Positions 255 to 55,324 of a stretch of 64,000 nucleotides of DNA are shown one piece after another. This DNA comes from a virus: positions 28,948 through 92,947 of the IMG/VR virus record IMGVR_UViG_3300043256_000348, one strand, 5' to 3'. Within the stretch, counting starts at the first letter, position 1, and every line of letters starts with the position of its first letter. A model generated the notes under the pieces. It ran no database searches. It was not told where the DNA came from and saw only the letters and a program-made list of their open reading frames with translations. The position numbers and the translations under genes were made by a program.

Positions 255-778
255 ACCCGATAACCCAAAAAGCGTGGGATGTATTTCGAGCATCATTTCA
301 GGATGGCGAGAGCGTTGTGGCCGAAGACGATGTGGGCCGGTTCTTCTACGGTAAGTTGCAAGCCGAAGAGGAGGGTATAACGTTGGTACGGCCCAGCAAA
401 TCGACGTTTCTTGAGTGGGATGAAATCGAGTTTATCGCTCACGATGGATTTCCTGTACAGCCAATTATGGGTATGAGTGCTGAAGAGGCAGAACTCCGAG
501 CCAGCATGGAACCCACGGACATTGTAAGGGCAATGCTGGAGCAATCGATTGACAGGCCACGCGAACGGAAAGTAAAGACGAAGGCAGTGCATTTCGGCGG
601 CGGCTGCCCGTGGTTTGCCGGGCCGGTACGACTGTTAGCTATACATAACCGGCGAAACAGTGGCCCGAAGTTCTGGTGTTGGCCTTATGATTCATTAGGT
701 GAGGTGATGGTATTCGGCTCTGGTGATGGCGCGGTGATGCATAGTTACGACTCAGAACACCTTTTCCTGGAAGTATAA
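251..778 (+). CDS. hypothetical protein, 175 aa
   Basis: It starts at an ATG overlapping the upstream stop and ends 3 nt before the methyltransferase gene. The protein is soluble and acidic, with no signal peptide, and has a central GGGCPWF segment. I do not recognise a family. Its position inside the glycosyltransferase/methyltransferase island suggests co-transcription only. Confidence 0.6.
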   Translation: MNPITQKAWDVFRASFQDGESVVAEDDVGRFFYGKLQAEEEGITLVRPSKSTFLEWDEIEFIAHDGFPVQPIMGMSAEEAELRASMEPTDIVRAMLEQSIDRPRERKVKTKAVHFGGGCPWFAGPVRLLAIHNRRNSGPKFWCWPYDSLGEVMVFGSGDGAVMHSYDSEHLFLEV

Positions 779-781
779 CCA

Positions 782-1405: not shown

Positions 1406-1758
1406 TTGCGATCCCAACGCAATTCGACGTGAAGAAAGACGACTGGTACGGGGAAAAACTCTTGCTACCGGATGGATCGCTCGTACTTTTACGTTTCCGC
1501 GGCTGGACTGTCGCAACTTCCTTTCCCGGCTGCCATTCATGCCTCGCATTGCAGTTGACCGGCCGGACCAACGCCTATCGCTACTGCGACGCAGGTGCCG
1601 AACACCTCCTATGTGTCAACGTGGCCCCCGGCGTCTGGCCCGCCCTGAAAATTAAATTCATAGAACGCAGCATGGGCTGGAATGCGTTCTGGACCTACGA
1701 TGGTTCGCCGTTTCGCGCTGAAGTATACGAGCGGATTGACTTCGGCCGCCTGCTATGA
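1402..1758 (+). CDS. hypothetical protein, 118 aa
   Basis: The start at 1402 overlaps the methyltransferase stop, and the stop overlaps the radical-SAM start at 1755. This tight coupling argues for the downstream ATG rather than an earlier in-frame ATG at 1366. The protein has several tryptophans and cysteines but no motif I recognise. Confidence 0.55.
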   Translation: MIAIPTQFDVKKDDWYGEKLLLPDGSLVLLRFRGWTVATSFPGCHSCLALQLTGRTNAYRYCDAGAEHLLCVNVAPGVWPALKIKFIERSMGWNAFWTYDGSPFRAEVYERIDFGRLL

Positions 1759-3002
1759 TATTTTTGTTTCATCCAAAGCCCTATCTGATCCAGCCCAACG
1801 CACAGGTGGGCCTCGGGCTGCTCTGCTTGGCGACCTACGCGAGGGAGCTTGGGGCCGAGGTCCGGGTGGTCAACGCGCAGGCGTGGACGATTGACCGGGC
1901 AGTGGAAGCGGTGCCGTCGGACGTGACTGTGTGCATGGGCGGCTGCCTGGTCGACCGGCCAATCATCGACGATCTCTCAGCGAAGCTGCGGGCGAAGGGA
2001 TGCTACGTCGTGGCCGGCGGGCCGGTGGCAGACGGCGAGGCCCTGGGGCCGAGGTGCGCGAGCCTGATCGTGCGGGGCGCAGGGGAGCCGTTCGTCCACC
2101 GGTACGTGCAGGAGGGCTGGCGGCCGAAGGGGCGGGTCAACTCACCCTACATCGTCGACTACGGGGCGTACCCGATCCCCGATCGTCGGCTGCTCGGCGG
2201 GCAGTTCGGCGGGAACATCTATCACCCGCGGTCGGGCAGGCAGACGCCGGTATCGACCACGCTCCTGACGGCGAGGGGCTGCCGGTACTCGTGCGCCTTC
2301 TGCCGGTCGGGCTCCCGCCGCGAGTTCTACGAGTACCCCCGGTCGCGGATTAGGGCCGAGCTGGAACAGATCGTGGAGCTTGGTATCCGCGACGTGCGGC
2401 TGGCGGACGACAACCTGGCATCCGGCCAGTCGAGATTCGCACGCCTGTGTGAGTTGCTGGGACAGCATGGCATCCACTGGCGGGCGAGCCTACGTACCTA
2501 TCCTAACGATGTGTCTCTGTACCGGACGATGGCCGAGAGCGGCTGCATAGAGGTGAGCCTCGGCGTCGAGAGCGCTGACCCCGCCGTGCTGAGGACGCTC
2601 CGGAAGGGCAGCCGCGTGGAATCGAACGAGCGGGCCGTGGCGAATGCTGTGGCCAGCGGAATCCCGCACGTCCGGGCCCTGATGATGATGAGCACGCCAG
2701 GGGAGACGGCCGAGACCCTCGACCTGAACAAGCGGTGGGCGGAAGCCCATCCCGAGGTGACGATCTGCCTAAGCGCCTTCGTGCCGTTCCCAGGCACGGC
2801 GATATTCCAATCGCCGGAGCGGTTCGGCTGCCGACTGGAAATGGACCTGGACAACCTGAACTTCTTCGCATTCCAGGGCGACGGGGCTTTGCCAGGGGCT
2901 CATGTGGGTATAATAAATGGTATGAGCCGTGATGAGCTGACGCGGCAGTTGCGGGCTTTCCGGGGATTTCTCGAAGAGCGGGGACAGATCAATGAAGGAT
3001 AA
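1755..3002 (+). CDS. B12-binding-type radical SAM protein
   Basis: This 415-aa protein has a cobalamin-binding-like N-terminal Rossmann half (GLGLLCLATYAREL, then CMGG and VAGGP strands). A radical SAM core carries the cluster motif C-x3-C-x2-C (C176, C180, C183), and a later GVESADP-type strand fits the barrel. Members of this family transfer methyl groups or build C-C, C-S or sugar modifications; the substrate here is unknown. Its 3' end overlaps the next gene by 11 nt. It lies among glycosyltransferase genes, so a role in making or modifying a glycan precursor is plausible but inferred. Confidence 0.8.
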   Translation: MIFLFHPKPYLIQPNAQVGLGLLCLATYARELGAEVRVVNAQAWTIDRAVEAVPSDVTVCMGGCLVDRPIIDDLSAKLRAKGCYVVAGGPVADGEALGPRCASLIVRGAGEPFVHRYVQEGWRPKGRVNSPYIVDYGAYPIPDRRLLGGQFGGNIYHPRSGRQTPVSTTLLTARGCRYSCAFCRSGSRREFYEYPRSRIRAELEQIVELGIRDVRLADDNLASGQSRFARLCELLGQHGIHWRASLRTYPNDVSLYRTMAESGCIEVSLGVESADPAVLRTLRKGSRVESNERAVANAVASGIPHVRALMMMSTPGETAETLDLNKRWAEAHPEVTICLSAFVPFPGTAIFQSPERFGCRLEMDLDNLNFFAFQGDGALPGAHVGIINGMSRDELTRQLRAFRGFLEERGQINEG

Positions 3003-3280
3003 CAGCGAGCAGCCGCCAGATCCTCTTGTGGACCGATTGGCTTGTGCCCTGAAACGTGAATTGAATGTGTGGACTGAAACCGACAGCCGTATCCTTGAGG
3101 TGACCAAGGGAACGTGGCTACGGGCTCGCGTCGAATGCCGATTGGCATTGGAAGACTTGCGGACGGCAATTCGCAACGAATATCAACGCACTGCTATCGT
3201 CCTGGGTAAATGGCTTCTGGCTTTGTGGCGACGAAAGAAACCGTGAATCCAGGCGTTCCTTGAAGAGAGAGGACAGATCA
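2967..3280 (+). repeat. duplicated ribosome-binding leader upstream of two adjacent genes
   Basis: The 25 nt before the ATG at 2992 (ending in GGGGACAGATCA) are nearly repeated before the ATG at 3281 (ending in GAGGACAGATCA), with the same CTCGAAGAG/CTTGAAGAG lead-in. The first copy is coding sequence for the end of the radical-SAM protein. This suggests the small gene at 2992 was inserted together with a copied start cassette. Confidence 0.6.
2992..3246 (+). CDS. small conserved protein, paralogue of the gene at 28604
   Basis: The 84-aa helical protein contains ALKRELNVW, VTKGTWLRARVE and LRTAIRNE. These align closely with ALKRELDVW, ATKGTFFRARVE and LCRVLRNE in the 72-aa protein at 28604-28822. 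The C-terminus is basic and tryptophan-rich. No function is known. The two copies lie about 25 kb apart in different operons and differ mainly at both ends. Confidence 0.65.
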   Translation: MKDNSEQPPDPLVDRLACALKRELNVWTETDSRILEVTKGTWLRARVECRLALEDLRTAIRNEYQRTAIVLGKWLLALWRRKKP

Positions 3281-4012
3281 ATGTCGGATAGGGAGCCGAA
3301 GTTTCAGGTTGGGGACCTTGTGCGTCACCGGGCGAGCGGTACGCCGGTCGTGATCAGTCAGGTGCATACCGGATGCAAACTACATGGCTCCGGTACCGCC
3401 TCTTGTAGCGTAAACTGCGGGTCAGGCGCGTTCATTGGCTCCTATACGCTCCATAGGGAATTCGGTGATTCATTTTCGTGTGACGAACTGCTCTTAGAAT
3501 TAGCAGAGATAGACTCGCCGGAACCGTCCCCTAAACCAGAACCACCCAAGATAGAGGTTCTCAGGGAAGACCAGACGAGAGTGGAGGAGGCGGGCCCGCG
3601 TCAACACCTTCTTTCTGCGGACGATTGCCAGAGAATCCTAAATGAAGTCACCTGCACTATCGTGAGGCACGCCATTTCGGTAGAGCAGTTATTGCCATGG
3701 ATAAGACTGGCAGGAAACATGCAGGACAGAGGCATACACGCCCGTACTGCCAGCGGACTGTTAAACAACGTGATTTCCGGAAGCCCACGCCATCGGGCCA
3801 GGGAGATTAAGAGCGAGTATCCTAAACCGGAGCCGCCGGAGAATGATGTTCTCAGAGAGGACCAAACAAAGGTGGCGAAACCGGAACCCCCTCCCAACCG
3901 CGACACGACACAAGGTAAGGTGCCGGAGCCTCCGCCGAACCGCGAAACACGCGAGGGCGATGTGCCGCCACCGGCAGATTTCGACCCTTACAGAATCCCG
4001 AAAGGGAAATGA
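3281..4012 (+). CDS. hypothetical protein with Pro/Glu-rich repeat tail, 243 aa
   Basis: The N-terminal 75 residues look like a small beta-barrel (FQVGDLVRHRASGTPVVI, then paired cysteines), as in KOW/SH3-like 'HTGCKL' modules. The middle is helical. The C-terminal third repeats VLREDQTRV/VLREDQTKV and PEPPPNR elements, a flexible linker. The ATG at 3281 follows the GGACAG leader; an upstream TTG at 3260 is less likely. Function unknown. Confidence 0.6.
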   Translation: MSDREPKFQVGDLVRHRASGTPVVISQVHTGCKLHGSGTASCSVNCGSGAFIGSYTLHREFGDSFSCDELLLELAEIDSPEPSPKPEPPKIEVLREDQTRVEEAGPRQHLLSADDCQRILNEVTCTIVRHAISVEQLLPWIRLAGNMQDRGIHARTASGLLNNVISGSPRHRAREIKSEYPKPEPPENDVLREDQTKVAKPEPPPNRDTTQGKVPEPPPNRETREGDVPPPADFDPYRIPKGK

Positions 4013-4036
4013 TGCACGAGACATAAGGAATCCAAG

Positions 4037-4300
4037 ATGACTCCCAAGCAAGTACACAACGAACTTGAGCTTATGCGCGGCGTTCGCAGTGAAGCCATCA
4101 CAATCTGCGGCGTTGACGCTACCTTATTGCCCAAAGAAACTTTAATCCTGGCCTTGCAGGTCCAGGAAGACTCGCACAGGCAGCGACTTGATATGATGAA
4201 GAAATCGGCCGGGGTAGGCGGCATGTTGCACGCCGCCGCCCAGTTCGCTAAAGACGGGAGGTTGCTTGATGCACGAGAACTGCAAGCTGATCTTCCTTGA
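4037..4300 (+). CDS. hypothetical protein, 87 aa
   Basis: This is a short, mostly helical soluble protein with no recognisable motif. It overlaps the next small gene by 32 nt, consistent with a coupled operon. Confidence 0.5.
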   Translation: MTPKQVHNELELMRGVRSEAITICGVDATLLPKETLILALQVQEDSHRQRLDMMKKSAGVGGMLHAAAQFAKDGRLLDARELQADLP

Positions 4301-4409
4301 CCGCTGCCTCGGCTGTTTCCTGCCGGGGATGTTTATGCTTGCCCCCGGCGACTGGCGGGGACCGGACACGGTGCATGTTGACTCCCTGCTGATTGCGAGG
4401 AAGCCATGA
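4269..4409 (+). CDS. small protein, 46 aa
   Basis: The ATG at 4269 follows GGGAGG at good spacing. The frame (starting MHENCKLIFLDRCLGC) ends in an ATGA overlap with the gene at 4406. A CxxC-like pair and a hydrophobic stretch (FLPGMFMLAP) are visible. The family is unknown; overlap geometry at both ends supports expression. Confidence 0.45.
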   Translation: MHENCKLIFLDRCLGCFLPGMFMLAPGDWRGPDTVHVDSLLIARKP

Positions 4410-4879
4410 GATTCGTCTTCGGTTGGTTGTCATGCCTGCTCGGTCTGCACCGGAAGGTCTACTGGTCGCCGGAAGACTGTGAACGTGAGCGAGCCATGGG
4501 CGGCATGTGTACGCCCTGGTCATGTTCACGTTGCGGCCACCAATCACAGATATTCCGTTATCCTCTGTGCCCGCCTCGGCCTGGACGGGAAGCCATGAGT
4601 GATTCAGTCGGTGACCGGATCGTTGAGGGGCTGCAAGACTTCACCGAAACTCTGAAGTGCTACAGAGGAGAATCGCTGGAGAAATTGTATTCCATTATCG
4701 CCATCCACCCATTGGCCGTCGGCATTCATACATATCCGCATGCCGACAAGAACAACCAACGTATCCACGCAGGTTGCGAAGAGCTTGAGCGGCAGGGCAG
4801 GATCTACCGCAAGACTGACGAGCCGAATCACTGCTTCTGGCTGCCGACAAAACAAGAGGACACTACCGATGGCGACTGA
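4406..4879 (+). CDS. two-part protein: Cys-rich N-half, winged-helix-like C-half
   Basis: The first 63 residues resemble short phage zinc proteins: a hydrophobic start, then CTPWSCSRCGH, then CPP. The remainder (from the Met at 4595, which has its own GGGAAGCC leader) is helical. It ends in a segment, IHAGCEELERQGRIYRK, typical of a recognition helix plus wing. This may be a fusion of two small phage proteins or may have an internal start. Confidence 0.5.
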   Translation: MRFVFGWLSCLLGLHRKVYWSPEDCERERAMGGMCTPWSCSRCGHQSQIFRYPLCPPRPGREAMSDSVGDRIVEGLQDFTETLKCYRGESLEKLYSIIAIHPLAVGIHTYPHADKNNQRIHAGCEELERQGRIYRKTDEPNHCFWLPTKQEDTTDGD

Positions 4880-5831
4880 CATCCGACTCGCCTTCGTGTT
4901 CAACCCCGACAACCCGTACCTCTGCGGCAAGCGATACCAGGTGAACTTCCGCAAGTGGTTCCTGGAGGCGCTGCCACGTGCCGAGGGTCTGCGGGTGGAC
5001 TTCATCACCAACGCCCAGCGGCTGGACTTGCAGCCCGTGTCCAAGCTGTACGACGCCTGGCTCTTCTTCGACGCGATGGAGTGGGGCCTGCCGCCTGTGC
5101 TCACCGGGGTCGATAAGATCAAGGCCGTGAAGGTCTGCCACATCGGGGACGCGCACGGCGTCAACAAGCTATCGAAGGCGTTCGGCGGCACGAAGCTGGA
5201 CTGCTGCCAGCGGTTCGGCTTCGACTACTACTTCTTCCAGCACTCGCCGAGCTACTTTTACCGGCACTACCCGGCCGACTTCCGCTACTGGTGGATTCCG
5301 ATGGGGGTGGACGCGGAGCTGTACCGCGAGGTCAAGCCGTGGAGCGAGCGGCGGTTCGATAAGGTGCTGCTGACCGGCTGCCTTGGGTCGGAGTATTATC
5401 CACTGCGAACGCGGCTCGCCGATCACCCAATGGTCCGCTATGAGAAGCCCGGATCGTACAGCGGGTGGGACAGCTACGCACCGGGCAAGTGGGACGAGGA
5501 TCGGTACAAGCTGCTGCTGGAAGAGTGGGGGGCATCGATCGCGTCCGGCTATTCCGTGGTGAATAAGTATTTCGAGATACCGGCTGCGGGGTGTTTGACG
5601 TTCGCGCACATCGACGGGGACAACGGATGCGGCGTGATAGAATTCGATCCGGACGAAGTGGTGCTGGTCAACAACGCGACGGCCGACGCGAAGATTGCTG
5701 AGTTCTTGGAGAGGCCGGCTGATCCGAAGTGGAACGTCCGGGCCGCCCTCGGCCGAAACTACGTGATGGAAAACTTTTGCCACGACAAGACCGTGCAGAT
5801 GCTTGTCGAGAAACTGAGGGAGGCGTTATGA
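4869..5831 (+). CDS. CgeB-like glycosyltransferase
   Basis: The 320-aa protein ends with the signature of CgeB/GT-B-like glycosyltransferases: VVNKYFEIPAAGCLTFA, then a charged EFDPDEVVLV strand and a terminal helix. An N-terminal HIGDAHG and a central IPMGVD strand fit the family. The start at 4869 overlaps the upstream stop; the reading frame extends further left but without a better start. It is the first of three tandem relatives. Donor and acceptor are unknown; virion, DNA-base or host-glycan glycosylation are all possible. Confidence 0.7.
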   Translation: MATDIRLAFVFNPDNPYLCGKRYQVNFRKWFLEALPRAEGLRVDFITNAQRLDLQPVSKLYDAWLFFDAMEWGLPPVLTGVDKIKAVKVCHIGDAHGVNKLSKAFGGTKLDCCQRFGFDYYFFQHSPSYFYRHYPADFRYWWIPMGVDAELYREVKPWSERRFDKVLLTGCLGSEYYPLRTRLADHPMVRYEKPGSYSGWDSYAPGKWDEDRYKLLLEEWGASIASGYSVVNKYFEIPAAGCLTFAHIDGDNGCGVIEFDPDEVVLVNNATADAKIAEFLERPADPKWNVRAALGRNYVMENFCHDKTVQMLVEKLREAL

Positions 5832-7596: not shown

Positions 7597-8543
7597 GAAT
7601 CCTCTACCTCAGCAGCCAGCGATGGTATGAGCAGAAGATGGACCGCACTCGCGTTCTGAATGTCGAGGCCGTACGCAGGCAGCCGAGCGTCAACCTGCAC
7701 ATCTGGGGCAACGGCTGGCCAGATTACGTCGAGGGCGAACTACTGGAGCAAAACATCCGCCGCAGGGGCATTGAGTATCCCGACCTTGTGTGGTGCTTCA
7801 AGGCGAACGAGCACAAAGGCGTGGCTGAGTTCCCACGGCCGAAAGCCATCGAGCTAAACGACTGCTACGACGCCAAGATTGCTGACGAGGTACGGGCTGC
7901 CGCCCCGTCGCTTGTCGTCTACCACCACGAGAACGACTGGCAATCGGAGAACATGAGGGACGGAGCCCGACCGGGGTGTGATTTCATCCACGTTCCGCAC
8001 TGCGCAGACAAGGCCGTTTTCTACCGCGAGGGCGACTGGGACCGGCCGATCGACTGCCTCTTCGCCGGCGCGCTTCACGAGACGATCTACCCGCTCCGCT
8101 CGCGGTACGTGCAGCTCATCAAGGGCGGCGCGATTCCAGGCGAGGTCCGCCGCTTCCCAGGACACCGGACGCGAACTGCCGGTGAGGGGGAGGCCCAGCA
8201 CCACAGTTTCTCGAACCACCTGCGGCGGTCGAAGGTGGCCCTCTGCTGCTCCTCGACTTACAAGTACGCCCTAAGCAAGTACGTCGAGGCCATCGCGGCT
8301 GGATGCGTGGTGGTGGGCGATATGCCAGACGACCAGTTGTTCCGGGACACGCTAGGGCGGGCACTCGTTGAGGTGAACAACAGCATGGCAGACGACCAGA
8401 TCATGCGAATCGTGAAGGAAACACTGGCCGATCCGGCCGAGCTAGAACGGCGACGGGAGTTCGGATACGCCGAGTACCTAGCCGCCTACACTACGGAGCA
8501 CTGGGCTCGCCGGTTTCTGGAGGCTGCCAGTCGAGTCGTTTGA
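7593..8543 (+). CDS. CgeB-like glycosyltransferase
   Basis: The 316-aa paralogue of the gene at 5828 shares GNGWPDY, HVPHCADKAVF, LFAGALHETIYPLRSRY and a late YVEAIAAGCVVVGDMPDD nucleotide-sugar site. It starts at an ATGA overlap. Its 3' end converges on, and overlaps by 53 nt, the leftward gene at 8491-8766, so this is the end of the rightward modification operon. No terminator hairpin is evident at the junction. Confidence 0.7.
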   Translation: MRILYLSSQRWYEQKMDRTRVLNVEAVRRQPSVNLHIWGNGWPDYVEGELLEQNIRRRGIEYPDLVWCFKANEHKGVAEFPRPKAIELNDCYDAKIADEVRAAAPSLVVYHHENDWQSENMRDGARPGCDFIHVPHCADKAVFYREGDWDRPIDCLFAGALHETIYPLRSRYVQLIKGGAIPGEVRRFPGHRTRTAGEGEAQHHSFSNHLRRSKVALCCSSTYKYALSKYVEAIAAGCVVVGDMPDDQLFRDTLGRALVEVNNSMADDQIMRIVKETLADPAELERRREFGYAEYLAAYTTEHWARRFLEAASRVV

Positions 8544-42261: not shown

Positions 42262-44062
42262 AGGCGTGCAGCAGCTCGCGGCGGCTCTCTCTTCATTCCG
42301 CGACAAGCCCGTCGAGTTCATGCGGCGGCTCTGGCCCGGGGTCAAGCTCTGGAAGAAGCAGCAGGAGATAGCCGAGTCGGTCGCCGGGAACTACGGGACG
42401 ATCGTGCATTCGGCGATCGAGACGGGCAAGGGCTTCATCGCGGCGCGGCTGATCCTGTGGTTCTACGCCACGCGGTTCCCCTGCAAGGTCGTGGCCACGT
42501 CGATCACGGCCCCGCAGCTACGGGACTCATTGTGGGGTGAGATCGACTCGGCACTTCGGCAACAGGCGGCCGGAGCGGACGGGGAGAAGATCACGCGGCC
42601 GGACGGCGAGCCCGTCACGGTCAAGGAACTGTTGGGCATCGACGTAATTCACATGGAGCTTCGGCGGCTCGACGAGAAGGGGCAGCCCCACGGCAACGAC
42701 TGGGTACGGCTTCGCGTAGCGAAAGACGTAGAGGGGATGCACGGGATACACCTTCCGCCCCTACCGGACGGCGGGCCGACAGTGTTTATCCTACTGGACG
42801 AGTGCTCCGGTATTTCCGACAAGTTCATCGACGCCCTGAAGGGGCAGGCCCACGTGATACTGGTACTCGGCAACCCGTTGAACTTGGCCGGGCAGTTCGC
42901 CCGGATGATCCGGGCGGGCAGTCAGTGCGACCCCTTGCATCCCGGTCGGTGGCGGTGGTACGTGATCCACATCGATGGCATCCGAACGCCGAACGTGGCC
43001 ACAGGGATGAAGTGGGATCGGCTGGGACGGAAGGGCCCGCTGCCGTCGCCGCCGATACCGGGGATCATGTCCTATCCGTCCTGGCTGGCATACAACGACG
43101 AGTGGGACGACTACAACATCACGACGCGGCTGCGGGGGCGGCTGCCGGAGGGTGACGAGACGCGGGTGGTGGTGCCGCGGGTCTGGCTTGACCGGTCGTT
43201 CCTGGCGTGGGACGAGATCGACCCGAAGTGGCGGCGGGAGAACTTGGCCCGGTGGATGGGCGTCGACGCCTCGCACGGCCGCGGCGATCTAGCCGTGTGG
43301 TGGGTGATCGACGCCCTGGGGACGGTGGACGTGCGGGCGATGGACCCGGAGGCTGCCAAGGACAAGGAATACGGCCAGCCGGATACGGTGAAGATGCTGG
43401 AACTGACGCAGGATTTAATGCAGGAGCACGGCATTTCGCCCGGCCGGGTGGCGGTGGACGCGGGCGGGGGCGGGCAGGACGCGATCGGCGACCCGCTGAG
43501 GCGGGAGGGCAAGGTCGTGCAGCTTGTGGACTTCGGGGCGGCCCCGTCGAAGAGCAGGAGGCGGCAGTACACCAAACGCCGATCGGAGCTGTACGGGCTG
43601 CTGGCCGAGGCGTGCAACCCGACGAAGTGGCGGCGGCTTGAAGGCGACGACGGGAAGCCCGGCCGCTGGGAGGTGTGCTTCGCCATGCCGGCGACGGGGC
43701 CGGTGGGGGAGCAGTGCCAGGCTCTGGCCGACGAGCTGCCGATGATCCCCAAGCTGTACGACCGCGAGGGGAAGATGTACCTGCCGCCGAAGTCCAAGCG
43801 GGCGCCGGAGTCGAAGGAGCAGACTTTGCGGGAGATCCTGGGGCACTCGCCGGACCGGTCGGACGCGGCCGCCCTGGCAGTCTGGGCGATGCGCGGCGGT
43901 ACTGGGACGCCCACCGTATCGCGGTCGCTGGTTCTAACAGAGGAGGAGCCCGGCGGCGATGAGCCGGAGCGGTCGGACCTTGTCGAGCGGATATTCGGAC
44001 CGGCGACGGAACCAGGCAGGGGCGACCGGCCGTGGACGCAGGACGACTTCTGGGGCGAGTGA
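42251..44062 (+). CDS. terL: terminase large subunit
   Basis: The 603-aa protein has an atypical Walker A SAIETGKGF (54-62) and Walker B FILLDE (179-184). A C-terminal RNase-H-like nuclease follows: GVDASHGRGDLAVWW (D339), VAVDAGGGGQD (D403) and SPDRSDAAALAVWA. These drive headful or site-specific packaging cleavage. The Walker A lacks the common GxxGxGK(T/S) spacing. Confidence 0.85.
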   Translation: MATEGVQQLAAALSSFRDKPVEFMRRLWPGVKLWKKQQEIAESVAGNYGTIVHSAIETGKGFIAARLILWFYATRFPCKVVATSITAPQLRDSLWGEIDSALRQQAAGADGEKITRPDGEPVTVKELLGIDVIHMELRRLDEKGQPHGNDWVRLRVAKDVEGMHGIHLPPLPDGGPTVFILLDECSGISDKFIDALKGQAHVILVLGNPLNLAGQFARMIRAGSQCDPLHPGRWRWYVIHIDGIRTPNVATGMKWDRLGRKGPLPSPPIPGIMSYPSWLAYNDEWDDYNITTRLRGRLPEGDETRVVVPRVWLDRSFLAWDEIDPKWRRENLARWMGVDASHGRGDLAVWWVIDALGTVDVRAMDPEAAKDKEYGQPDTVKMLELTQDLMQEHGISPGRVAVDAGGGGQDAIGDPLRREGKVVQLVDFGAAPSKSRRRQYTKRRSELYGLLAEACNPTKWRRLEGDDGKPGRWEVCFAMPATGPVGEQCQALADELPMIPKLYDREGKMYLPPKSKRAPESKEQTLREILGHSPDRSDAAALAVWAMRGGTGTPTVSRSLVLTEEEPGGDEPERSDLVERIFGPATEPGRGDRPWTQDDFWGE

Positions 44063-44153
44063 GCACTTAATGAATTATTACGTTGTGTCGGAAGTTATTG
44101 CTGCGGCGGTACTTGCGGCATGGTTTCCCGGGGTGCACGAAAGGAGATTACGA

Positions 44154-44942
44154 ATGTATGAGCGATTTACTGATGAAGCGAGGGCTGTCATGCAGTCAGC
44201 TAAGAAGGAAGCACAGCGGTTCAATCATGAGTTCATCGGGACTGAGCACATCCTGCTGGGACTGATTACGGATAGCGACGGTCAGGCGGGCCAGGTGCTG
44301 AAAACCCTTGGGGTCGATCTACGAACAATCCGGCTGGAGACGGAGAAGCTGATACCGGCAGGCCCCTCTGTGATCCGCCTGCCAGAGCATGTACCGCTCA
44401 CGCCGCGGGCGAAGTCTGTCATCGCTATAGCAGGGGCAGCCTGTGACCATAATCGCCATCGCGTGAAAGCAGGGCATCTCTTAATAGGGCTGCTCGCCGA
44501 AACGGAGGGCGTGGCCGCCCAAGTGCTGATGAACCTGGGGCTGAAGCTCGAAGAGGTCCGCGAGGAAGTTTGGGCGATGGCTGACGTGCACGAAGGTACG
44601 GAGACAAATACATGGAACAAAGCTGAGGCATTAGTCGTTAGCAATTGCCAAGCAGCACGCCAGCGAGCCGAGCTAGGGGTTGTTCTCCACGATCGATGGC
44701 AGACAAGGGCAGGCTGGCCGTATGCGAACGCGGAGTCGAACTGTCTAGGGGCCATCGAACCAGGCGGGGTGGACGGTTTGGACCACTCTGGTTTCGTCGT
44801 GCTCGGCGCACTTCGGGCCCTGACGGTGAGCGAGGGCGGGGCCACGCTGGGTGAGTTGGCCGAGGTATTGGGGTACTTGCCCTTAGCGGTAAGGGGTGAA
44901 CTCCACTGCCTGGAACATCGCGGCTGGGTTGAACGAGCCTGA
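44154..44942 (+). CDS. free-standing ClpC N-domain protein with C-terminal winged-helix-like part
   Basis: YERFTDEARAVMQSAKKEA, FNHEFIGTEHILLGLI and the second copy TPRAKSVIAIAGAACDHNRH, VKAGHLLIGLLAETEG form the double Clp-N repeat of ClpC/ClpA. No ATPase domain follows. The last about 110 residues end in LGELAEVLGYLPLAVRGELHCLEHRG, HTH-like. AAAGGAG precedes 44154. It may bind Clp adaptors or substrates and interfere with host proteolysis (inference). Confidence 0.7.
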   Translation: MYERFTDEARAVMQSAKKEAQRFNHEFIGTEHILLGLITDSDGQAGQVLKTLGVDLRTIRLETEKLIPAGPSVIRLPEHVPLTPRAKSVIAIAGAACDHNRHRVKAGHLLIGLLAETEGVAAQVLMNLGLKLEEVREEVWAMADVHEGTETNTWNKAEALVVSNCQAARQRAELGVVLHDRWQTRAGWPYANAESNCLGAIEPGGVDGLDHSGFVVLGALRALTVSEGGATLGELAEVLGYLPLAVRGELHCLEHRGWVERA

Positions 44943-45430: not shown

Positions 45431-45625
45431 ATGCTCGAAGAAGTGGTTCCTGAACTGGGGAAGGTTTTGGACAGACTGGCAAACACAGATGAGGGTCTGG
45501 CACTAACAGACGACTTGGCGACCTTGCTCGCGAGACTTTATCAGTCGCTCGTAGGGAAAGGCATTCTTGCCGAACACGCTGCCATGATGGTGTCGGGCTT
45601 CGCACGTAGTACCAGTGGGAAGTGA
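45431..45625 (+). CDS. hypothetical protein, 64 aa
   Basis: ATG after GGAGGACGAGGTG. Helical with GLALTDDLATLLARLYQSLV. Overlaps the portal start region. Confidence 0.5.
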   Translation: MLEEVVPELGKVLDRLANTDEGLALTDDLATLLARLYQSLVGKGILAEHAAMMVSGFARSTSGK

Positions 45626-45629
45626 GCCC

Positions 45630-47903
45630 GTGAGTGCAATAGCCGAGATGGCGATGGCGAGTCGGGAGCGGACCGAGGCGCTGGTCTCCCGGTACCGGGC
45701 GGCCGACCCGTCAAGGCAGTCGATGCTGGCCGGCGGCGGCGTGGTGCTCGGCGAGTCCCAGCTCTCGACTGGGCTGTTCGGCGAGGGGGCTGCCGATCGG
45801 GAGATGTACTCTCACTACCGCGGCTGGACCTACGCGGCGATCCGCCCGATAGCCCAGACGATCGCCGGGCAACCGGTGAGGGTTGGGCGGGAACTGGGCC
45901 CGGCGGAGAAGCCGCGGTCGGGCAGGCTGGCCACGAAGGGGTTGCTGCCGAGCTGGCTGAAGCAGACCGAGGTCGAGCAGTACGAGACGCACCCGCTGCT
46001 TGACGCGATTGCGCGCCCGAACCCGGTGATGACCTCGTGGCACCTGCTGTACATCCTGGCCGCGTCGCTGGAGATTGCCGGCGAGCACTTGTGGTGGGTA
46101 GTGGCCGGAAAAGAGGGTCCGGTGATCTGGCCGGTGCCGTCGCCGTGGTTCGAGCCTATTCACAGGGACGGCCAGCCGTTCGCGGCGTGGTCGATCACTC
46201 CCGGCGGGCAGGGCGAGCCGGAAGAGATTCCGAACAACGAAGTCGTCTACTTCCACTATCCTGACCTTGCGGACCCGCTCGGGTGCACCTCGCCGGCCAT
46301 GACGCAGTCGAGGGCGATGTCGGCGGATGAGGCGATGCAGGACGCGCAGGCCAACACGTTCCGCAACGCGCCGTTCCCGAAGCATGCCCTGGTCGTCGGC
46401 GACGTGACGGAGGACGGCGAGAACATGGGCCGCCCTATGCTGGAGCATTGGCAGCGGCAGCAGCTCTACACCGAATTCAAGAAGATGTATTCCCAGACGG
46501 CCCAGCACGGGCTGCCGCTCATCCTCGACAGGCTGATCCAGAACGTCATCCCGCTGTCGAACAAGCCGAACGAGATGGACTTCACCGGGAGCGGCAAGGT
46601 CACGAAGGCGCGCATCTTCCAGGGGCACGGCACGAACCCGGTGATCGCGGGCGAGGTCGAGGGGGTGAACCGGGCATCGAGCTACGTGGCCCGAAGGCAC
46701 TTCGCGGACCAAACGGTAAATCCGAAGATCGAGCTGATCAGCGAGGTGCTGACCCGGGGACTGGCCCCGATCGTGGCCGGCGAGGGCGAGCGGCTAAAGG
46801 TGTGGATCGAGTCGTACCAGCCTGACGACCGGGACGAGCGGAGGAGGGACCTCGACCTGGCGGCGAAGTACGGCTCGGTGACGAAGGATGAGGTCCGCTC
46901 GACCCTGACACATCTGGGGCTCGATCCGATGAACGGCGGGGATGAGGTGGCTGCCCCGCCTACTCTGATTCCGATGCTGTCGACGGGCCCGGCGGCCAAA
47001 CGGATCGAGGGGCTCCCGGACATCGCCGAAGTTCTCGACCGCGACGAGCGGGTGAAGGCGTGGCTAAAGGCGCACGGCCGGCACGAGGACCGGCTGCTGG
47101 ACGCGGTACATGCACTGTTCTTAGAGCAGCGGGACGCGGTGACGGCGAAGCTATACGAGGTGCTCGGCGAATTGGATAAGGCAGTACGGTCGCCGGAGGG
47201 GCTGAGCGAGCTGATCTTCAACCCGGACGAGTGGGAGGAGAAGTTGATCGACGCGAGCCGGCCGTACCTACAGCGGTCCGCTTACTTCGCCGCCGTGAGA
47301 ACGCTAAACGAGATCAAGAGCCGCAAGCAGGGGCCGGAGGAACTGATAGCACAGTTGACGCCGGCGGTTCGCGGGGCGATCGACGCCGAGTTGAACACGC
47401 TGCTGTCACGGCCCTACTGGCCCGACGTGCAGCAGACGACGCGGGCGGCGTTGTCTTCCACGCTATCGGAGGGCATGGCGAACGGCGAGTCGCTGCACCA
47501 CTTGGCGGCAAGGATAGGCGACGCCCCGACAGTGCCGGTGGTCGACCTGGGGGTGTTCCCGCCGGGCACGAAGTTCGGCAGCAACGCGGTGCTGGGGAGC
47601 GACGCGAGCCGGGCGAGGGCGCTGCTGATCGCAAGAACAGAAACAACTGGTGCCTTCGGGGCGGGTACGCAGGCTCAGTTGGAGGAGTTGCGGGCCGATG
47701 GGGTGGTAGGGGAGAAGGAACTGCTGGTGATAAACGACCAGTACCTCCGCGACACCCACCGAGCCGTGGCAGACGTGGGGCCGATCCCGATCAACGAGGA
47801 TTACGACTTCGGCGGCTACAAGGCACCCTACCCGGGGCACCACTCGCTGCCGGCGAAGGAAAGAGCCCACTGCCGGTGCGATTCGGTCGCCGTAGTGGAG
47901 TAA
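45630..47903 (+). CDS. portal protein fused to Mu-F-like head protein
   Basis: The 757-aa protein starts as an HK97-type portal (SHYRGWTYAAIRPIAQTIAG, later RNAPFPKHALVVGD and GHGTNPVIAGEVEGVN). The C-terminal 180 residues match Mu gpF-like minor head proteins: ARALLIARTETTGAFGAGTQ, a DTHRAVADVGPIPINEDYDFGG block and PAKERAHCRCD. The two are usually separate adjacent genes. The GTG start at 45630 follows GGAAGTGAG; an earlier GTG at 45615 is possible. Confidence 0.8.
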   Translation: MSAIAEMAMASRERTEALVSRYRAADPSRQSMLAGGGVVLGESQLSTGLFGEGAADREMYSHYRGWTYAAIRPIAQTIAGQPVRVGRELGPAEKPRSGRLATKGLLPSWLKQTEVEQYETHPLLDAIARPNPVMTSWHLLYILAASLEIAGEHLWWVVAGKEGPVIWPVPSPWFEPIHRDGQPFAAWSITPGGQGEPEEIPNNEVVYFHYPDLADPLGCTSPAMTQSRAMSADEAMQDAQANTFRNAPFPKHALVVGDVTEDGENMGRPMLEHWQRQQLYTEFKKMYSQTAQHGLPLILDRLIQNVIPLSNKPNEMDFTGSGKVTKARIFQGHGTNPVIAGEVEGVNRASSYVARRHFADQTVNPKIELISEVLTRGLAPIVAGEGERLKVWIESYQPDDRDERRRDLDLAAKYGSVTKDEVRSTLTHLGLDPMNGGDEVAAPPTLIPMLSTGPAAKRIEGLPDIAEVLDRDERVKAWLKAHGRHEDRLLDAVHALFLEQRDAVTAKLYEVLGELDKAVRSPEGLSELIFNPDEWEEKLIDASRPYLQRSAYFAAVRTLNEIKSRKQGPEELIAQLTPAVRGAIDAELNTLLSRPYWPDVQQTTRAALSSTLSEGMANGESLHHLAARIGDAPTVPVVDLGVFPPGTKFGSNAVLGSDASRARALLIARTETTGAFGAGTQAQLEELRADGVVGEKELLVINDQYLRDTHRAVADVGPIPINEDYDFGGYKAPYPGHHSLPAKERAHCRCDSVAVVE

Positions 47904-48646: not shown

Positions 48647-48719
48647 AGCCGGCGGGAAGGCGTAGTCGCCTCCTCAGTTTCATACGCTGGGAATTCAGGT
48701 GCAATTCCTGAGCCGGCCA
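48647..48719 (+). tRNA. tRNA-Met(CAT)-like element
   Basis: Acceptor arms AGCCGGC and GCCGGCC pair except 1-72 (A x C). The anticodon stem TCAGT/GCTGG with loop TTCATAC places CAT, and the T arm TCAGG-TGCAATT-CCTGA is clear. Length is tRNA-like (72 nt between acceptor ends). The D arm is poor: a hairpin GGAAGGCG/CGCCTCC with a 4-nt loop fits better. The 3' end lacks an encoded CCA. Could be a decayed tRNA. Confidence 0.45.
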
Positions 48720-48750
48720 CTTGAATCACAATCGGGTATCGGAACAACCG

Positions 48751-48784
48751 GGCCCGCGACCTTTCGAGGTTGCGGGCCTTTTTC
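48751..48784 (+). terminator. intrinsic terminator before the protease gene
   Basis: An 11-bp stem GGCCCGCGACC / GGTTGCGGGCC with a TTTCGA loop, followed by TTTTT. It ends transcription after the tRNA-like element. The protease start lies 18 nt later, so it must be read through or has its own promoter. Confidence 0.75.
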
Positions 48785-48801
48785 TTTGCCGGGAGCGAGA
48801 C

Positions 48802-51800
48802 ATGGCGACAGTCGAAACGGTGGACGCGGCTGCCCCGATCCTGGACAGCCTACGGAGCCGGAGGCCGGACGGGCGGTGGGGTATCGGCACGGCGAAGAGC
48901 TACCTTGATGCGACGCCACCGAACCTGTTCGACGTTTCACTCGATGAGTGGCAGGCGGTCATGGAGAAGGCCGCCGACACCCTCACTTACTGCGAGCGGG
49001 AAGCGACTATCGAGGCGCTGTCGTGGAGTGTGCTAGGGGAGGAGGGCCGCGACCGGCTCGGCCGGAATATGCCGTTGCTGCCGGTCAAGCGTGCGAAGAA
49101 GCCGGCGAACATCGAGGGGTTCGTCCTCGCGTTCGACTACACGCTGACGACGATTGACGAGGACCGGGACTTCGACGTGCTGGAGCCGAAGGGGGCGACG
49201 GTCGATATGCTCGGGCCGTTGCTGTTCAACCACGTCACGTTGCAGCCGATCGGCAAGCCGCTGAAGATCCTCAAGCAGAACAGCAAGCGGCTCGCAGAGC
49301 AGTCGGCCATTATGGACTTCCCCTTCGGCCGGGACGTGGCCCAGATGATCGAGTTCCAGGTGCTCCGGCGAATGTCGCACGGCTTCCTGCCGACGAAGTA
49401 CGAAGAGCGCACGCCGAAGAAGGCCGACGACGAAGACGAGGCCGTGGGCTGGCACATCATGGAGTACGAGATCATGGAGCGGTCCGTGGTGTCGGTGGCC
49501 AGCAACCGCGGTGCGATCATCGAGGCGTGGAACCTGCTGGGGGAGAAGGGCTTCCACGACGACAGAGTGAAGGGCTGGCTGAAGAGCGTCTATGAGGCGA
49601 GGCCCGTGATCGGCAGAGGCTTCGCACCCGACCGTTGCCTGATCTGTCACAACACTTCGGCCAGGCAGGCTCCGCACCATCAATGCAACTGCTGCGACTC
49701 TCCCGCCCCCGACCCGTCCGATTGCGACCAGACGCCGCCCGCGTTTCGGTGGCCAGCAACCGCGGTGCGATCATCTGATGTGGTTGACCCGGCGAAAGAA
49801 GCAGAGCCTCAGTCACTTCAGTATCCGGCAGGCAAGTCAAGTAAGAGGCTGACTGAAGACGGCGTGGAGACGTGCGAACTGTGCGATGCCCCGGCAGTGA
49901 CAACCACAAACATGCGTCACCAGTGGTGCGAAGACCATACGCCGGAAGTATGCAAAAGAAAAACCGCATTGATCCCCTTCAATAAATCAGCCGGCTCGAC
50001 GTTTGACGTTTGGCGGGAGCACCTGGAGCCGGCCAAGCTGGAGTACGACTGGGCGAGCCGCTACATCGGCTGCCAGGTCAAGCACCTGTTCTGGGTGCAC
50101 ACCAAGGTTCCGAAGGCGCGGATCGGCTCGTGGCTGACGGGGCTGCGTGAGGTGCTGGCCGACTACAGCGTCGAGGACACCCGCCACATTTCAAGCGGCG
50201 GCGAGGAGCTGCCGCCGAAGTATGAGATCATCCAGCTCACCCCAGACAAGGCCGATGACTTCCTGGTTCAAGGCTTGCAGTTCCGCTGCGGGCCGGACCG
50301 CAAGTTCGTACTCGGCTTCGAGCCGTACTACGGCATGCTGGAGGTGATATTCTACACGTCCGACAACGAGGCGGCCAAGCAGTTCGCACGCGAGGTGATC
50401 GGCAAGACGTGGGAGTGGTCGCGGGTGAACAACTTTCTCAAGGGGCAGGCGTTCAGCTTGACAGGTGGCTTCCTACCGAAGACCGGCGAGCGATGGGACG
50501 GGCTGTTCCTTCCCGATCGTAACAAGCGGCCGGTCATGCGCGCCGTGGAGGCGGTCAACGAGAAGCGGGCGGCCGCGTCCAACCGCGGCATGATCCTGAT
50601 GGGCCCGCCGGGAACCGGCAAGACGCTGTCGGCTCGCATCGTCCGGAACCTCGCCGACGCGACGTTCATCTGGGTGGCGGCGAGGGACTTCTGGAACGTT
50701 GGGGCGTTCGGAGCCTTCACTCACTCGTTCGATCTGGCCCGGGAGCTGGCCCCCTCGGTCATCTGCTTCGAGGATGTGGACAACTGGATCAATGGGGGCG
50801 GGACGGAGGAGTTGCTGAAGAGCGAGATGGACGGCATGAACCGGTCATCGGGCGTGCTCACGCTGCTAACGACGAACTACCCGGAGCTGATCCCGGACGC
50901 GCTGATCGACCGCCCCGGGCGGTTCCACGACGTGTTGCTGTTCGACCTGCCGGACGGGAAAGTCAGGGGCGAGATGCTCGCCGCGTGGCTGCCGGAAGCG
51001 CCGGGGAAGGATCGGAAGAGGGCGGTTGGGAAGACGGACGGCTACAGCGGGGCCCACATCTTCGAGCTGGCCGAGTACGCCAAGACGCTGCGAGACGAGG
51101 ACTCGCTTTCGATCGGCGAGGCGTTGCTGAAAGCCATCGACAAGATCGAAGAGCAACGGGAGCTAATCACGGGCGTGCAGCTTGAGGGCAGCCGCTACAA
51201 GCCGAACCGCTCAGGTTTCCCGGGGCAATTCGGCGCGTTGATACCGGCCAAGGTGTTCGCTTTCGGAAACAAGACAGAGAAGACGGTCCCCGGCAACCCG
51301 TCCGGCGGATCGGGCGACGGCACCGAGGGCACGTGGAGCAAGCTGAAGCTGAGCGACTTCACCGACAAAGACTGGGGCGACCTGTCGGCGGCCGAGAAGG
51401 GCAATATTAAGAAATACTTTGCCTGGCACCCGGGCACCGTCGAGACGTTCGCCGACCTGAAGCTGGGGCACCACTTTGCGTCCGGTGACGACGCGGGCAA
51501 GGCGAGCCTGAACGGGGTGCGGAACGCGCTGGCCAGGGCGAACCAGGTGGACGGGATCGGCGACGAACTGGAACGGGTGATGACGCATCTACGGGCACAC
51601 CTGCCGGAGCGGTCGGTCGTTATTGCTCATCTAGCTGTCGGTCTCGACGACGATGCGAAGCGGTGGCTCGCTGCAATAGAAAAGCTCGAAGAGGCGTGGG
51701 CTCAAGCGACGGGTAAGCGAAGCGGGGACGAAAAGGAAACACTATGCAAGCAAACGCTCGCATGGCTGGCGGCTGCGGCGACGGAGGAGGAGTTGAGGCA

Positions 51801-51876
51801 GGCCAAGGCAGTGATCGACGCGAGGTTGCGGGAGAAACGCAACCGGAAGCTGAGGAAGCTGTTTCGCCTGAGATGA
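48802..51876 (+). CDS. prohead protease fused to AAA+ ATPase
   Basis: The 1024-aa protein has a prohead-protease-like N-region: the FNH (142-144) histidine, MSHGF (191-195) with the likely catalytic serine, then a strand ending SVVSVASNRGA (228-238). A Cys-rich linker follows (CLIC, CNCC, CELC, C..H..C, about 279-384). An AAA+ core comes next: GPPGTGKT (601-608), CFEDVD (655-660), TTNYPE (690-695), DRPGRF (703-708). A helical tail ends it. The ATG at 48802 has GGGAGCG upstream; the frame opens further left. Confidence 0.75.
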   Translation: MATVETVDAAAPILDSLRSRRPDGRWGIGTAKSYLDATPPNLFDVSLDEWQAVMEKAADTLTYCEREATIEALSWSVLGEEGRDRLGRNMPLLPVKRAKKPANIEGFVLAFDYTLTTIDEDRDFDVLEPKGATVDMLGPLLFNHVTLQPIGKPLKILKQNSKRLAEQSAIMDFPFGRDVAQMIEFQVLRRMSHGFLPTKYEERTPKKADDEDEAVGWHIMEYEIMERSVVSVASNRGAIIEAWNLLGEKGFHDDRVKGWLKSVYEARPVIGRGFAPDRCLICHNTSARQAPHHQCNCCDSPAPDPSDCDQTPPAFRWPATAVRSSDVVDPAKEAEPQSLQYPAGKSSKRLTEDGVETCELCDAPAVTTTNMRHQWCEDHTPEVCKRKTALIPFNKSAGSTFDVWREHLEPAKLEYDWASRYIGCQVKHLFWVHTKVPKARIGSWLTGLREVLADYSVEDTRHISSGGEELPPKYEIIQLTPDKADDFLVQGLQFRCGPDRKFVLGFEPYYGMLEVIFYTSDNEAAKQFAREVIGKTWEWSRVNNFLKGQAFSLTGGFLPKTGERWDGLFLPDRNKRPVMRAVEAVNEKRAAASNRGMILMGPPGTGKTLSARIVRNLADATFIWVAARDFWNVGAFGAFTHSFDLARELAPSVICFEDVDNWINGGGTEELLKSEMDGMNRSSGVLTLLTTNYPELIPDALIDRPGRFHDVLLFDLPDGKVRGEMLAAWLPEAPGKDRKRAVGKTDGYSGAHIFELAEYAKTLRDEDSLSIGEALLKAIDKIEEQRELITGVQLEGSRYKPNRSGFPGQFGALIPAKVFAFGNKTEKTVPGNPSGGSGDGTEGTWSKLKLSDFTDKDWGDLSAAEKGNIKKYFAWHPGTVETFADLKLGHHFASGDDAGKASLNGVRNALARANQVDGIGDELERVMTHLRAHLPERSVVIAHLAVGLDDDAKRWLAAIEKLEEAWAQATGKRSGDEKETLCKQTLAWLAAAATEEELRQAKAVIDARLREKRNRKLRKLFRLR

Positions 51877-51924: not shown

Positions 51925-53640
51925 ATGGAACTGACAGATGCGTTAAAGAAGTGGGCCGTCGAGAACCTCGACATGGCCGCCGACGCCTCCGATGACGAGT
52001 ACAAGGCGGCCATCACTGGGGCGATCTCCGCCGGCACGCTGACGGCCAGGAAGTACGCCGAGCTGATGGCGGAGGACCCGGACGTGAAAGAGGAGCTGGG
52101 CAAGCTGTTGGCTCAGGCCAATGCCCCGGTGATCGCGGGGCTGGGCAAGGTGGCCGACGCGGTCGGCAGCCTGGCTGAGAAGATCCAGGCAGGACCGCCG
52201 AAGACGACCCTGGAATCGACCGTCGAGACGAGTATGGCGAGCGCCGGCGAAGGTGCCGACGACATCGACGGCAAGATCGAGCGGCAAGTCGAGAAGATGC
52301 TTGCCGAGAAAAACCAGAACGGCAACGGCGAGCGGGCCGACTTCGCGGCCGCGTTCATGGCCAAGGCCGCGATGGGCGGAAGCAACCCGCGGGTGAAGGC
52401 CGAGGTCGATAAGTACTCGACCCAGCGCAAGTCGCTGGTCTGCCCGGAGTTCATCGGTGCGGGCAAAAGGCACCCGCTGGCGGGCGAGCCGGCCGTGCGG
52501 TTCAACCACGCGATGGAGGCCCCGAGCGAGGCGGACTTCGCGATCTGCGGGGCGTTCGCCAAGTTCCAGTTGCTGCGCGGCACCGTCGGCCCCACGGCCT
52601 GCGAGGCCCTGCTGACGGAGCACGAGCGGAAGCTGGTCCTCCACGCGCTGCACGAGATGAGGTGGACCGGCGTGGTCGGGGTGATGGGCGGGCAGGAGGC
52701 CCGGATCGACCTGAGCGGTACGGAGGTCGACGACCGGAAGCTGACTCCGCCGGAACGCAAGGCGATCCTCGACGACACGACCAGCGGCGGCACCTACGCG
52801 GTGCCCCGCGTGTTCGACGAGGCGATCTCGGCCGCCCCGATCCTCTTCGGCGAGCTGGCCCCGCTGGTCGACATGCAGAACCTCGTGAGGGGTGCCGTGG
52901 TCGACGGCAGCACGTGGACCGACCCGAGCTTCATCTCCCAGACCGAGGGCTCGGCGTTCAGCCTGGTCAGCACGGCCAGCCTGATCGGAAACCTCGACAC
53001 GTCGATCTTCAACACCGTGGCCGGGATCGAGCTGGGCCTGGACTGGGAGAGCGACACGCCGATCAACTTCGGCACGTACATCGTGCAGAGGCTCGGCATG
53101 AAGCTGAAGGAGTGGCTGGACGAGCAGATCGCCATCGGCGACGGCACGACGGAGCCGACCGGGATCTTCACGGCTTCCGGCGTCAACACGTCCAACTCCA
53201 GCAACAGCACCGGCGGCCCGTTTACGCTCGGCGACTTCGAGAAGCTGGCGTTCGGCCTGACAAAGGCGATGCGTGCCAGCAACCCGAGGTCGAACGTCTA
53301 CGTGACGTCGGACTACATGTACAGGCAGGCCCGAGGCGTGCCTGTACATACGACCGACGCCCGGCGGCTGCTTGGCATGGACCACTCGGCGTACACGATC
53401 CTGGAGCACCCGTGCAAGATCCAGGACTCGATCGCCAATGGGTCCATCGCGTTCGCGAACCTGGCCTACTACCGGATGTACCGCCGGCTGGGCATCCAGA
53501 TCCGCAACGTGATCGAGGGCCAGACCCTCGCGCTGAAAAACACGCGGCTAATCATCGTCCGCGCGCGGTACGGTGGCCAGCCGACGCTGGGAGTCTCGAT
53601 CAACAAAATGACCGACGGCCCGACCAGCTACGGGAATTAG
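51925..53640 (+). CDS. major capsid protein (HK97 fold)
   Basis: The 571-aa protein has an N-terminal helical, scaffold-like delta region (about 1-160). The HK97-type core begins near GGTYAVPRVFDEAISAAPILFGELAPLVDM and includes a DTSIFNTVAGIELGLDW segment and WLDEQIAIGDGTTEPTGIF. It ends VRARYGGQPTLGV. The start has AAAGGAGTTCCGAA. The N-terminal part is probably removed by the upstream protease. Confidence 0.85.
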   Translation: MELTDALKKWAVENLDMAADASDDEYKAAITGAISAGTLTARKYAELMAEDPDVKEELGKLLAQANAPVIAGLGKVADAVGSLAEKIQAGPPKTTLESTVETSMASAGEGADDIDGKIERQVEKMLAEKNQNGNGERADFAAAFMAKAAMGGSNPRVKAEVDKYSTQRKSLVCPEFIGAGKRHPLAGEPAVRFNHAMEAPSEADFAICGAFAKFQLLRGTVGPTACEALLTEHERKLVLHALHEMRWTGVVGVMGGQEARIDLSGTEVDDRKLTPPERKAILDDTTSGGTYAVPRVFDEAISAAPILFGELAPLVDMQNLVRGAVVDGSTWTDPSFISQTEGSAFSLVSTASLIGNLDTSIFNTVAGIELGLDWESDTPINFGTYIVQRLGMKLKEWLDEQIAIGDGTTEPTGIFTASGVNTSNSSNSTGGPFTLGDFEKLAFGLTKAMRASNPRSNVYVTSDYMYRQARGVPVHTTDARRLLGMDHSAYTILEHPCKIQDSIANGSIAFANLAYYRMYRRLGIQIRNVIEGQTLALKNTRLIIVRARYGGQPTLGVSINKMTDGPTSYGN

Positions 53641-54313: not shown

Positions 54314-55324
54314 GTGCGAATAGCGATCGCCTACCCGCCGCGACCGGCGTGGCCGAAGATGGAGTGGGTTTCCAAGGCATTTTCAGCCATCGGGCACGAT
54401 GTCTGCCAGGCCCACAGCATTAACGAGCTGGCCGAGGCAGACGAGGACTGCGATCTGGTTGTCTTCGAGCAGCGGTGCGCTGGGCTGAACTACGCCGACG
54501 TTGCCGAGGTGGCGTCAGGCAGGCGTACGACCTGGGTGCAGTGGGTATTTGATTTGATGGCCACCGAGCCCGGCTTGCAGCTTGGCGAGCAGCCGAACCT
54601 CGGCCACCGGACCACCTCGGCCACCTGGGAGGCGACCGACACGCTCCGGATGATGCGGCTGATGGACCTGGTGTTCGTCAAGGAGCGGGGGCTGCTGGCC
54701 GAGTACGCCAATCTCGGAGTAGAGGCTCGGTGGCTCGATCAGGCTTGTCCCTCGTGGATGGGCGAGTGCCGGCACAGCTCATCGCCCGAGTTCGACGTGT
54801 GCCTCTTCGCCAACTTCACGACAGCGGCCAGGCAGAGGCGGGTGGACGTGCAGAGTCTTCTCCGATGCCGCCGCAGCATCGTGTGGGCCGGGCACCCGGG
54901 CGGCGACGCGCCGCCTGGGGTCCGGGCCATTGGGTTCGTGCCCGTGGAGCGACTGCCGGAGCTGGCGTCCCGGGCGGCGGTGACGCTCTGCGTCGACCAG
55001 CGCCATGATCTCGATGGATATGTGAGCGACCGACTCTGGCTCGCCCTCGGCATGGGGGCGTGCGTGGTTCGCCGGGCGTCGCCCGGGCTGCCGGGTTCCC
55101 CTGGCGAGTATTACGGCGTCTACGATGACGGCGATTGCCTGAGTGACGTAGTCGGTGCCCTCTTGGCCTGTGTAGACCACCGGCAATTGGTTGGGCGAGG
55201 TGCCCGCCAGTACGTTATGGCCAATCACACCTACGAGCACCGCTGCCAAGAGCTACTACGGGAGGTTGAGAAATGCAGACACCAGACAAGCGGAAGTGCC
55301 GCCGCTGCCACGGCAGGGGCATGA
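54314..55324 (+). CDS. CgeB-like glycosyltransferase, GTG start
   Basis: The 336-aa protein has an N-terminal Rossmann half (AFSAIGHDV, DLVVFEQRCAGLNYADV) and a C-terminal half with YVSDRLWLALGMGACVVRR, the CgeB-like acceptor/donor site. It ends YVMANHTYEHRCQELL. A more divergent relative of the three at 4.9-8.5 kb, here between the capsid and tail genes. Confidence 0.65.
   Translation: MRIAIAYPPRPAWPKMEWVSKAFSAIGHDVCQAHSINELAEADEDCDLVVFEQRCAGLNYADVAEVASGRRTTWVQWVFDLMATEPGLQLGEQPNLGHRTTSATWEATDTLRMMRLMDLVFVKERGLLAEYANLGVEARWLDQACPSWMGECRHSSSPEFDVCLFANFTTAARQRRVDVQSLLRCRRSIVWAGHPGGDAPPGVRAIGFVPVERLPELASRAAVTLCVDQRHDLDGYVSDRLWLALGMGACVVRRASPGLPGSPGEYYGVYDDGDCLSDVVGALLACVDHRQLVGRGARQYVMANHTYEHRCQELLREVEKCRHQTSGSAAAATAGA

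Follow-up and report, generated by a model that had tools for sequence, protein, structure and literature searches.

Head-maturation proteases of the S78 type act inside the capsid, and prohead maturation is generally held to be ATP-independent until DNA packaging. Bcs1 is an AAA protein that moves its substrate in the folded state, in a concerted cycle without threading (PMC11143374, PMC12219900). We found an S78 protease domain and an AAA module with predicted resemblance to Bcs1 joined in a single gene of an uncultivated tailed phage. The gene lies within a window of 64,000 nucleotides (the whole stretch of DNA analyzed here), itself taken from a virus record of 92,947 bases.

The protease-AAA fusion gene (48802..51876; the window features given below in the form start..end are all on the plus strand) comprises 1,024 codons plus a stop codon. 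The ATG at 48802, with the sequence gggagcgag just ahead, is likely its start; an in-frame TTG at 48721 is also possible. One open frame extends from the stop before 48721 through 51876 with no internal stop, and both Pfam domains score above their curated cut-offs. The preliminary description was thus right in seeing a single polypeptide that combines a prohead protease with a complete AAA core; a stop splitting the frame between the two, which was looked for at the junction, is not there. An identical copy of the gene was found on a contig of a second metagenome (L002), and a diverged fusion, with 71% identity to the window in the best tblastn segment, on contigs from two further metagenomes (L003 and its identical counterpart L004). 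These identical and diverged copies rule out an assembly chimera as the source of the fusion. Purifying selection is apparent on both the protease and the ATPase halves, as judged from dN/dS ratios (Nei-Gojobori, window vs. L003) of 0.17 for the protease, 0.14 for the middle domain and 0.12 for the AAA core; the C-terminal domain gave 0.14 and the variable tail 0.43.

The S78 prohead protease domain occupies aa 101–274 (49102..49623). It matches a head maturation protease PHROG and, at aa 103–241, the Pfam family Peptidase_S78 (PF04586; E = 1.3e-6, 29.1 bits vs. a cut-off of 21). The motifs initially singled out as protease-like proved to be conserved: the putative catalytic His144 of FNH (49231..49233), the putative catalytic Ser192 of MSHGF (49375..49377) and Glu226, the E of 'IMERSVVSVASN' and possibly the third catalytic residue (49477..49479), are invariant columns in alignments A5/A9 (nine family sequences). 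Among 71 aligned S78 rows, histidine occupies its position in 67 (two of the remaining four are contig-edge gaps), serine in 69 (the other two are gaps) and glutamate in 68. In the AlphaFold2 model the protease region is beta-rich with pLDDT mostly 70–92, and the A7 profile found no match to any PDB chain. The gene is located in the head module, with a portal gene upstream and a Phage_capsid gene downstream. On the basis of sequence and context, the window protein is an S78-type (HK97 gp4 type) head-maturation serine protease, for which cleavage of head proteins is predicted.

The upstream neighbor encodes a portal protein fused to a MuF-like domain (45615..47903; Pfam Phage_portal 5.5e-35; MuF 1.5e-5, just below the cut-off), and the downstream neighbor the major capsid protein (51925..53640; Pfam Phage_capsid 8e-17). 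Just upstream of the fusion gene ARAGORN detected a tRNA-Met (CAT; 48647..48720), which L003 and L004 carry at the equivalent place (7847-7920), and between this tRNA and the fusion gene a terminator-like stem with a T run can be read (48753..48790). Other genes of the region were noted in passing. An ORF with a ClpC/ClpB-type N domain (43959-44942; Pfam Clp_N 7e-28) is flanked by a terminase-like ORF and the portal gene, and its place in L003 is taken by an unrelated gene. A glycosyltransferase-like gene shortly after the capsid gene (54314-55324; Pfam Glyco_trans_1_2 6e-15) is retained in L003. The portal-MuF gene of L003 (3206-6358, plus strand) contains an intein-like insertion (Intein_splicing 3e-4, below the cut-off) that the window does not have; opposite the intein-like stretch lies a 334-aa ORF (L003:5471-6475, minus strand) which by eye resembles a homing endonuclease and has no Pfam match.

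The AAA module consists of a Bcs1/YjoB-like middle domain, N-terminal within the module (aa 399–585, 49996..50556; AlphaFold2 pLDDT mostly above 90), and an AAA ATPase core with lid (aa 586–800, 50557..51201), matched by Pfam PF00004 at aa 597–715 (E = 6.3e-17, 62.7 bits vs. a cut-off of 21.2). We aligned 46 such modules, 36–81% identical to that of the window. Invariant in all 46 are the G, K and T of Walker A (GPPGTGKT, 50602..50625), the E, D and D of Walker B (FEDVD, 50767..50781), the sensor Asn, and both arginines of DRPGRF (50908..50925), the arginine-finger region and signature of the family. Walker B is written in ED order, as it presumably also is in Bcs1. The aromatic residue of pore loop 1 is F or Y in 18 of the 46 modules and the position is deleted in four; the window itself has F. 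The AlphaFold2 model of the module (pLDDT 92.8, pTM 0.88) presents the pore-loop region as one helix. In Foldseek searches, the best PDB match was Bacillus subtilis YjoB (7w42; E = 8.7e-19 over 422 columns) followed by Bcs1 (E = 9.5e-15); both cover the whole module, and both again ranked on top when the full-length model was used. Proteasome ATPases and VCP also match (E of about 1e-12 to 1e-14), while i-AAA/FtsH structures align to the AAA core only. Because TM-scores to YjoB and Bcs1 are about 0.5, with an rmsd near 9 Å over the full length, the modeled kinship of the middle domain with these proteins is suggestive only. Plasmids and Planctomycetota harbor standalone bacterial relatives of equal two-domain layout (cellular relatives are 23–25% identical in alignment A6), so the phage AAA module was probably acquired from such a gene.

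Protease and AAA module are separated by a variable Cys-rich linker (aa 275–393, 49624..49980) with three CxxC motifs. The preliminary description spoke of a zinc-rich linker: the Cys-rich stretch is present, its cysteines spanning residues 279–384, but AlphaFold2 models aa 269–393 as disordered (pLDDT about 30) and the stretch varies among relatives. It is missing in the 71% relative L003 and mostly missing in L007, an equivalent gene without the AAA module, and so is not a constant part of the protein; with L003 lacking the linker, a zinc-rich segment as the key functional part is not supported. As to the helical tail proposed at the other end, a variable helical end does exist (aa 937–1024, 51610..51873; helical in AlphaFold2), but the piece before it, 'DLKLGHH..GVRNALARA..HLRAHLP', belongs to a distinct C-terminal domain (aa 844–936, 51331..51609), found also in the AAA-less L007 and L018. 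Since the C-terminal domain and the helical end occur in AAA-less relatives, both belong to the protease gene. By inspection, the order of AAA module and C-terminal domain differs: the module comes first in the window, L003 and L032 and second in L052 and L053. Among the AAA-less genes, a 'SWEW...' domain of about 80 aa recurs between protease and tail (L016–L018, L034 and L100), and one prohead protease (L040:5947-9573) is interrupted in the corresponding linker region by an intein-like Hint/LAGLIDADG insertion, for which the two Pfam matches are below their cut-offs.

We searched for relatives from both ends of the protein. The AAA-keyed scan, based on the signature and blind to the protease, used the exact string DRPGRFH(D/E)V, then a codon ending in pyrimidine-T start. 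It returned 70 viral contigs (53 clusters at 90% identity), all with the AAA module, and all 70 pair it with an S78 protease, the assignment being weak or partial in L146 (model E = 0.003), in L151 and L190 (contig edge) and in L175 (end motif only). The search for other such fusions that had been proposed at the outset thus revealed recurrence: 58 contigs carry an S78-AAA fusion (including L158, frame-split at the AAA module and tallied as fused) and four an AAA-S78 fusion, while in the remaining eight the two are neighboring genes. All four AAA-S78 genes run on into a Phage_capsid domain, forming an AAA-S78-Phage_capsid polypeptide with each of the three domains above its Pfam cut-off (L136, 4226-7354; L165, 2968-6267, minus strand; L181, 1010-4303; L199, a fuller copy of L153, 1760-5035, minus strand). 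In the unfused operon of L107, the AAA gene overlaps the beginning of an S78 gene that stands on its own (55.6 bits in Pfam), and head genes follow. For ten genes neighboring diverse AAA-bearing members, the PHROG match was in every case a portal or major head protein. Furthermore, S78 and AAA distances are correlated (Mantel r = 0.417, permutation maximum 0.263, p <= 0.0005). In the loci examined, this AAA subfamily is, by sequence assignment, invariably associated with prohead proteases. Separately, we observed that L196 encodes a 1814-aa ORF (361-5802) in which the AAA module is joined to a domain of ATP-dependent DNA ligases (Pfam 1.7e-13), with a separate S78 gene directly after.

The protease-keyed search, which used a nine-sequence S78 alignment, yielded 80 viral loci and one Planctomycetaceae MAG contig. 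Ten of these 81 loci contain the AAA module (43–100% identity) and 71 do not. In the protease tree, genes with and without the AAA module are intermingled, which implies repeated loss or repeated gain. The full-length module was sought in 50 records and was present only where the fusion was present; it was not found elsewhere in the records of AAA-less relatives, including nine of 80–100 kb that are possibly incomplete. AAA-bearing phages do not have a longer capsid protein (median 533 vs. 547 aa). The gene of L007 is instructive here: its protease is 82% identical, and the C-terminal domain and capsid gene are kept, although the contig is only 4 kb long and the AAA module could sit elsewhere in that genome. 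In both genes L003 and L007 are nearer each other than either is to the window, and therefore the module appears more likely to have been lost or replaced in L007 than to have been gained twice. As L007, the sister of L003, has a very similar capsid protein without the module, the latter seems not to be required for this capsid type, and its absence from most protease relatives characterizes it as an accessory aid rather than a universal need.

On balance, we lean towards the view that the AAA module is a dedicated chaperone, driven by ATP and held by a tether to the maturation protease, and that its targets are head proteins in the course of procapsid assembly or maturation. The S78 protease would bear a complete Bcs1/YjoB-type module on a long flexible linker, and these modules could assemble into a ring whose ATP-driven opening and closing chaperones or remodels head proteins, in procapsid assembly or in maturation. 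Candidate substrates are the scaffold part of the capsid protein, the portal, the capsid protein and the protease itself. The ring would handle a folded or partly folded substrate with no threading, and the protease may later release the AAA module by cutting. With YjoB/Bcs1 as the best match and no conserved aromatic pore loop, the module's features argue for a chaperone of folded proteins and against degradation by threading. Such action is likely to take place inside the capsid, since that is where S78 proteases work and since in four relatives AAA-S78 is fused directly to the major capsid protein. A wider proposition, which we put forward tentatively and with some doubt, is that the heads of one family of tailed phages are built or matured with the aid of an ATP-powered ring within the procapsid scaffold-protease machinery, in some lineages made as an AAA-protease-capsid polypeptide.

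The preliminary description likened the fusion to an FtsH/Lon-like architecture. In a machine of that kind, the AAA ring would unfold parts of the scaffold or capsid protein and thread them into the protease to which it is tethered, making their digestion ATP-dependent. AAA and protease do share one chain, the AAA core is near Cdc48/VCP, PAN and FtsH by sequence, and a tether would be feasible in either domain order. Yet the likeness is not supported by the structural comparison, where the best full-length fold match is YjoB/Bcs1 and FtsH matches the core only; moreover, the pore aromatic is not conserved and its region is a single helix in the model, relatives without the AAA module retain an equivalent protease, and versions with split genes occur. 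The fusion protein was also searched for an HExxH motif (the M41 metalloprotease site) and for transmembrane segments, and has neither (highest 19-residue hydropathy 0.97). We therefore regard a threading protease as unlikely. That close relatives may have or lack the AAA module, and that its position in the chain and the linkers vary, would also suit a cargo, loaded into the prohead by the fusion, freed by the protease and ejected to act in the host, for instance against defence. However, the pairing with S78 in 70 of 70 contigs, in separate genes and capsid triple fusions too, is stricter than a cargo predicts, and inspection revealed no other enzyme modules in place of the AAA, inteins and one uncharacterised domain apart, which makes such an effector role improbable.

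The tether and the correlated evolution of the S78 and AAA domains could be accounted for as well if the ring moved no substrate but timed the activation of the protease, as an ATP-dependent switch or an oligomeric platform. A regulator of this sort is quite unlikely in our estimation, as no regulatory contact is predicted and the full-length model joins the domains by a disordered linker. That the fusion is functionless or artefactual, be it an assembly chimera or a hitch-hiking domain, could draw on the lack of the module in L007 but is contradicted by recurrence in about 50 clusters, purifying selection and invariant active sites, and deserves hardly any credence. The tethered chaperone hence remains our preferred reading. 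The recurrent AAA-protease pairing, whether split, fused or capsid-joined, would imply an energy input or a dedicated folding helper in the head maturation of some phages, and the natural set of variants, including the module-free L007 gene, is suited to probing the role of the ATPase. In some phages, ATP may supply the power for building or maturing the head, a possibility undescribed in the open literature as far as titles and abstract openings indicate.

In comparison with known systems, S78 protease and AAA module are each of a known kind, while their pairing is new here: in accordance with the preliminary description, which knew of no precedent, the titles and abstract openings of the open literature offer no evident case of a prohead or head maturation protease fused to an AAA or other ATPase domain. 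Among 50,697 phage records we found no full-length or high-similarity AAA module, and so no cultured phage that carries it, the best matches being other AAA proteins with 24–34% identity, two of which were checked and lie outside annotated head modules. Similarly, 392 Planctomycetota genomes contained no prophage copy over the full AAA module and three partial cellular relatives. With YjoB (7w42) and the standalone bacterial 'ATP-binding protein' AAA proteins the phage module has its two-domain layout in common, but these are standalone host proteins, whose loci, as far as seen here, show no linkage with capsid genes; a tie between virus capsid assembly and an AAA of the Bcs1/YjoB type is not otherwise known, and the present one would be the first. 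Bcs1 carries a membrane helix at its N-terminus and has a Rieske substrate, whereas the window protein has no membrane segment. In FtsH and other AAA proteases, too, a single chain unites protease and AAA core; the window fusion differs in its protease family and in lacking HExxH, a membrane segment and a conserved aromatic pore loop. The S78/HK97 gp4-type proteases (PF04586, TIGR01543) resemble the window protein in the Pfam match, the conserved His/Ser/Glu and the place between portal and capsid genes; the window protein is distinguished by the AAA module and the Cys-rich linker, and scores below the cut-off of the TIGR01543 equivalog (26 vs. 59 bits). Finally, phage protease-capsid fusions (e.g., L103, PHROG 4523) join S78 to Phage_capsid in one chain in the absence of AAA, in comparison with which four of the loci described here carry an extra N-terminal AAA module.
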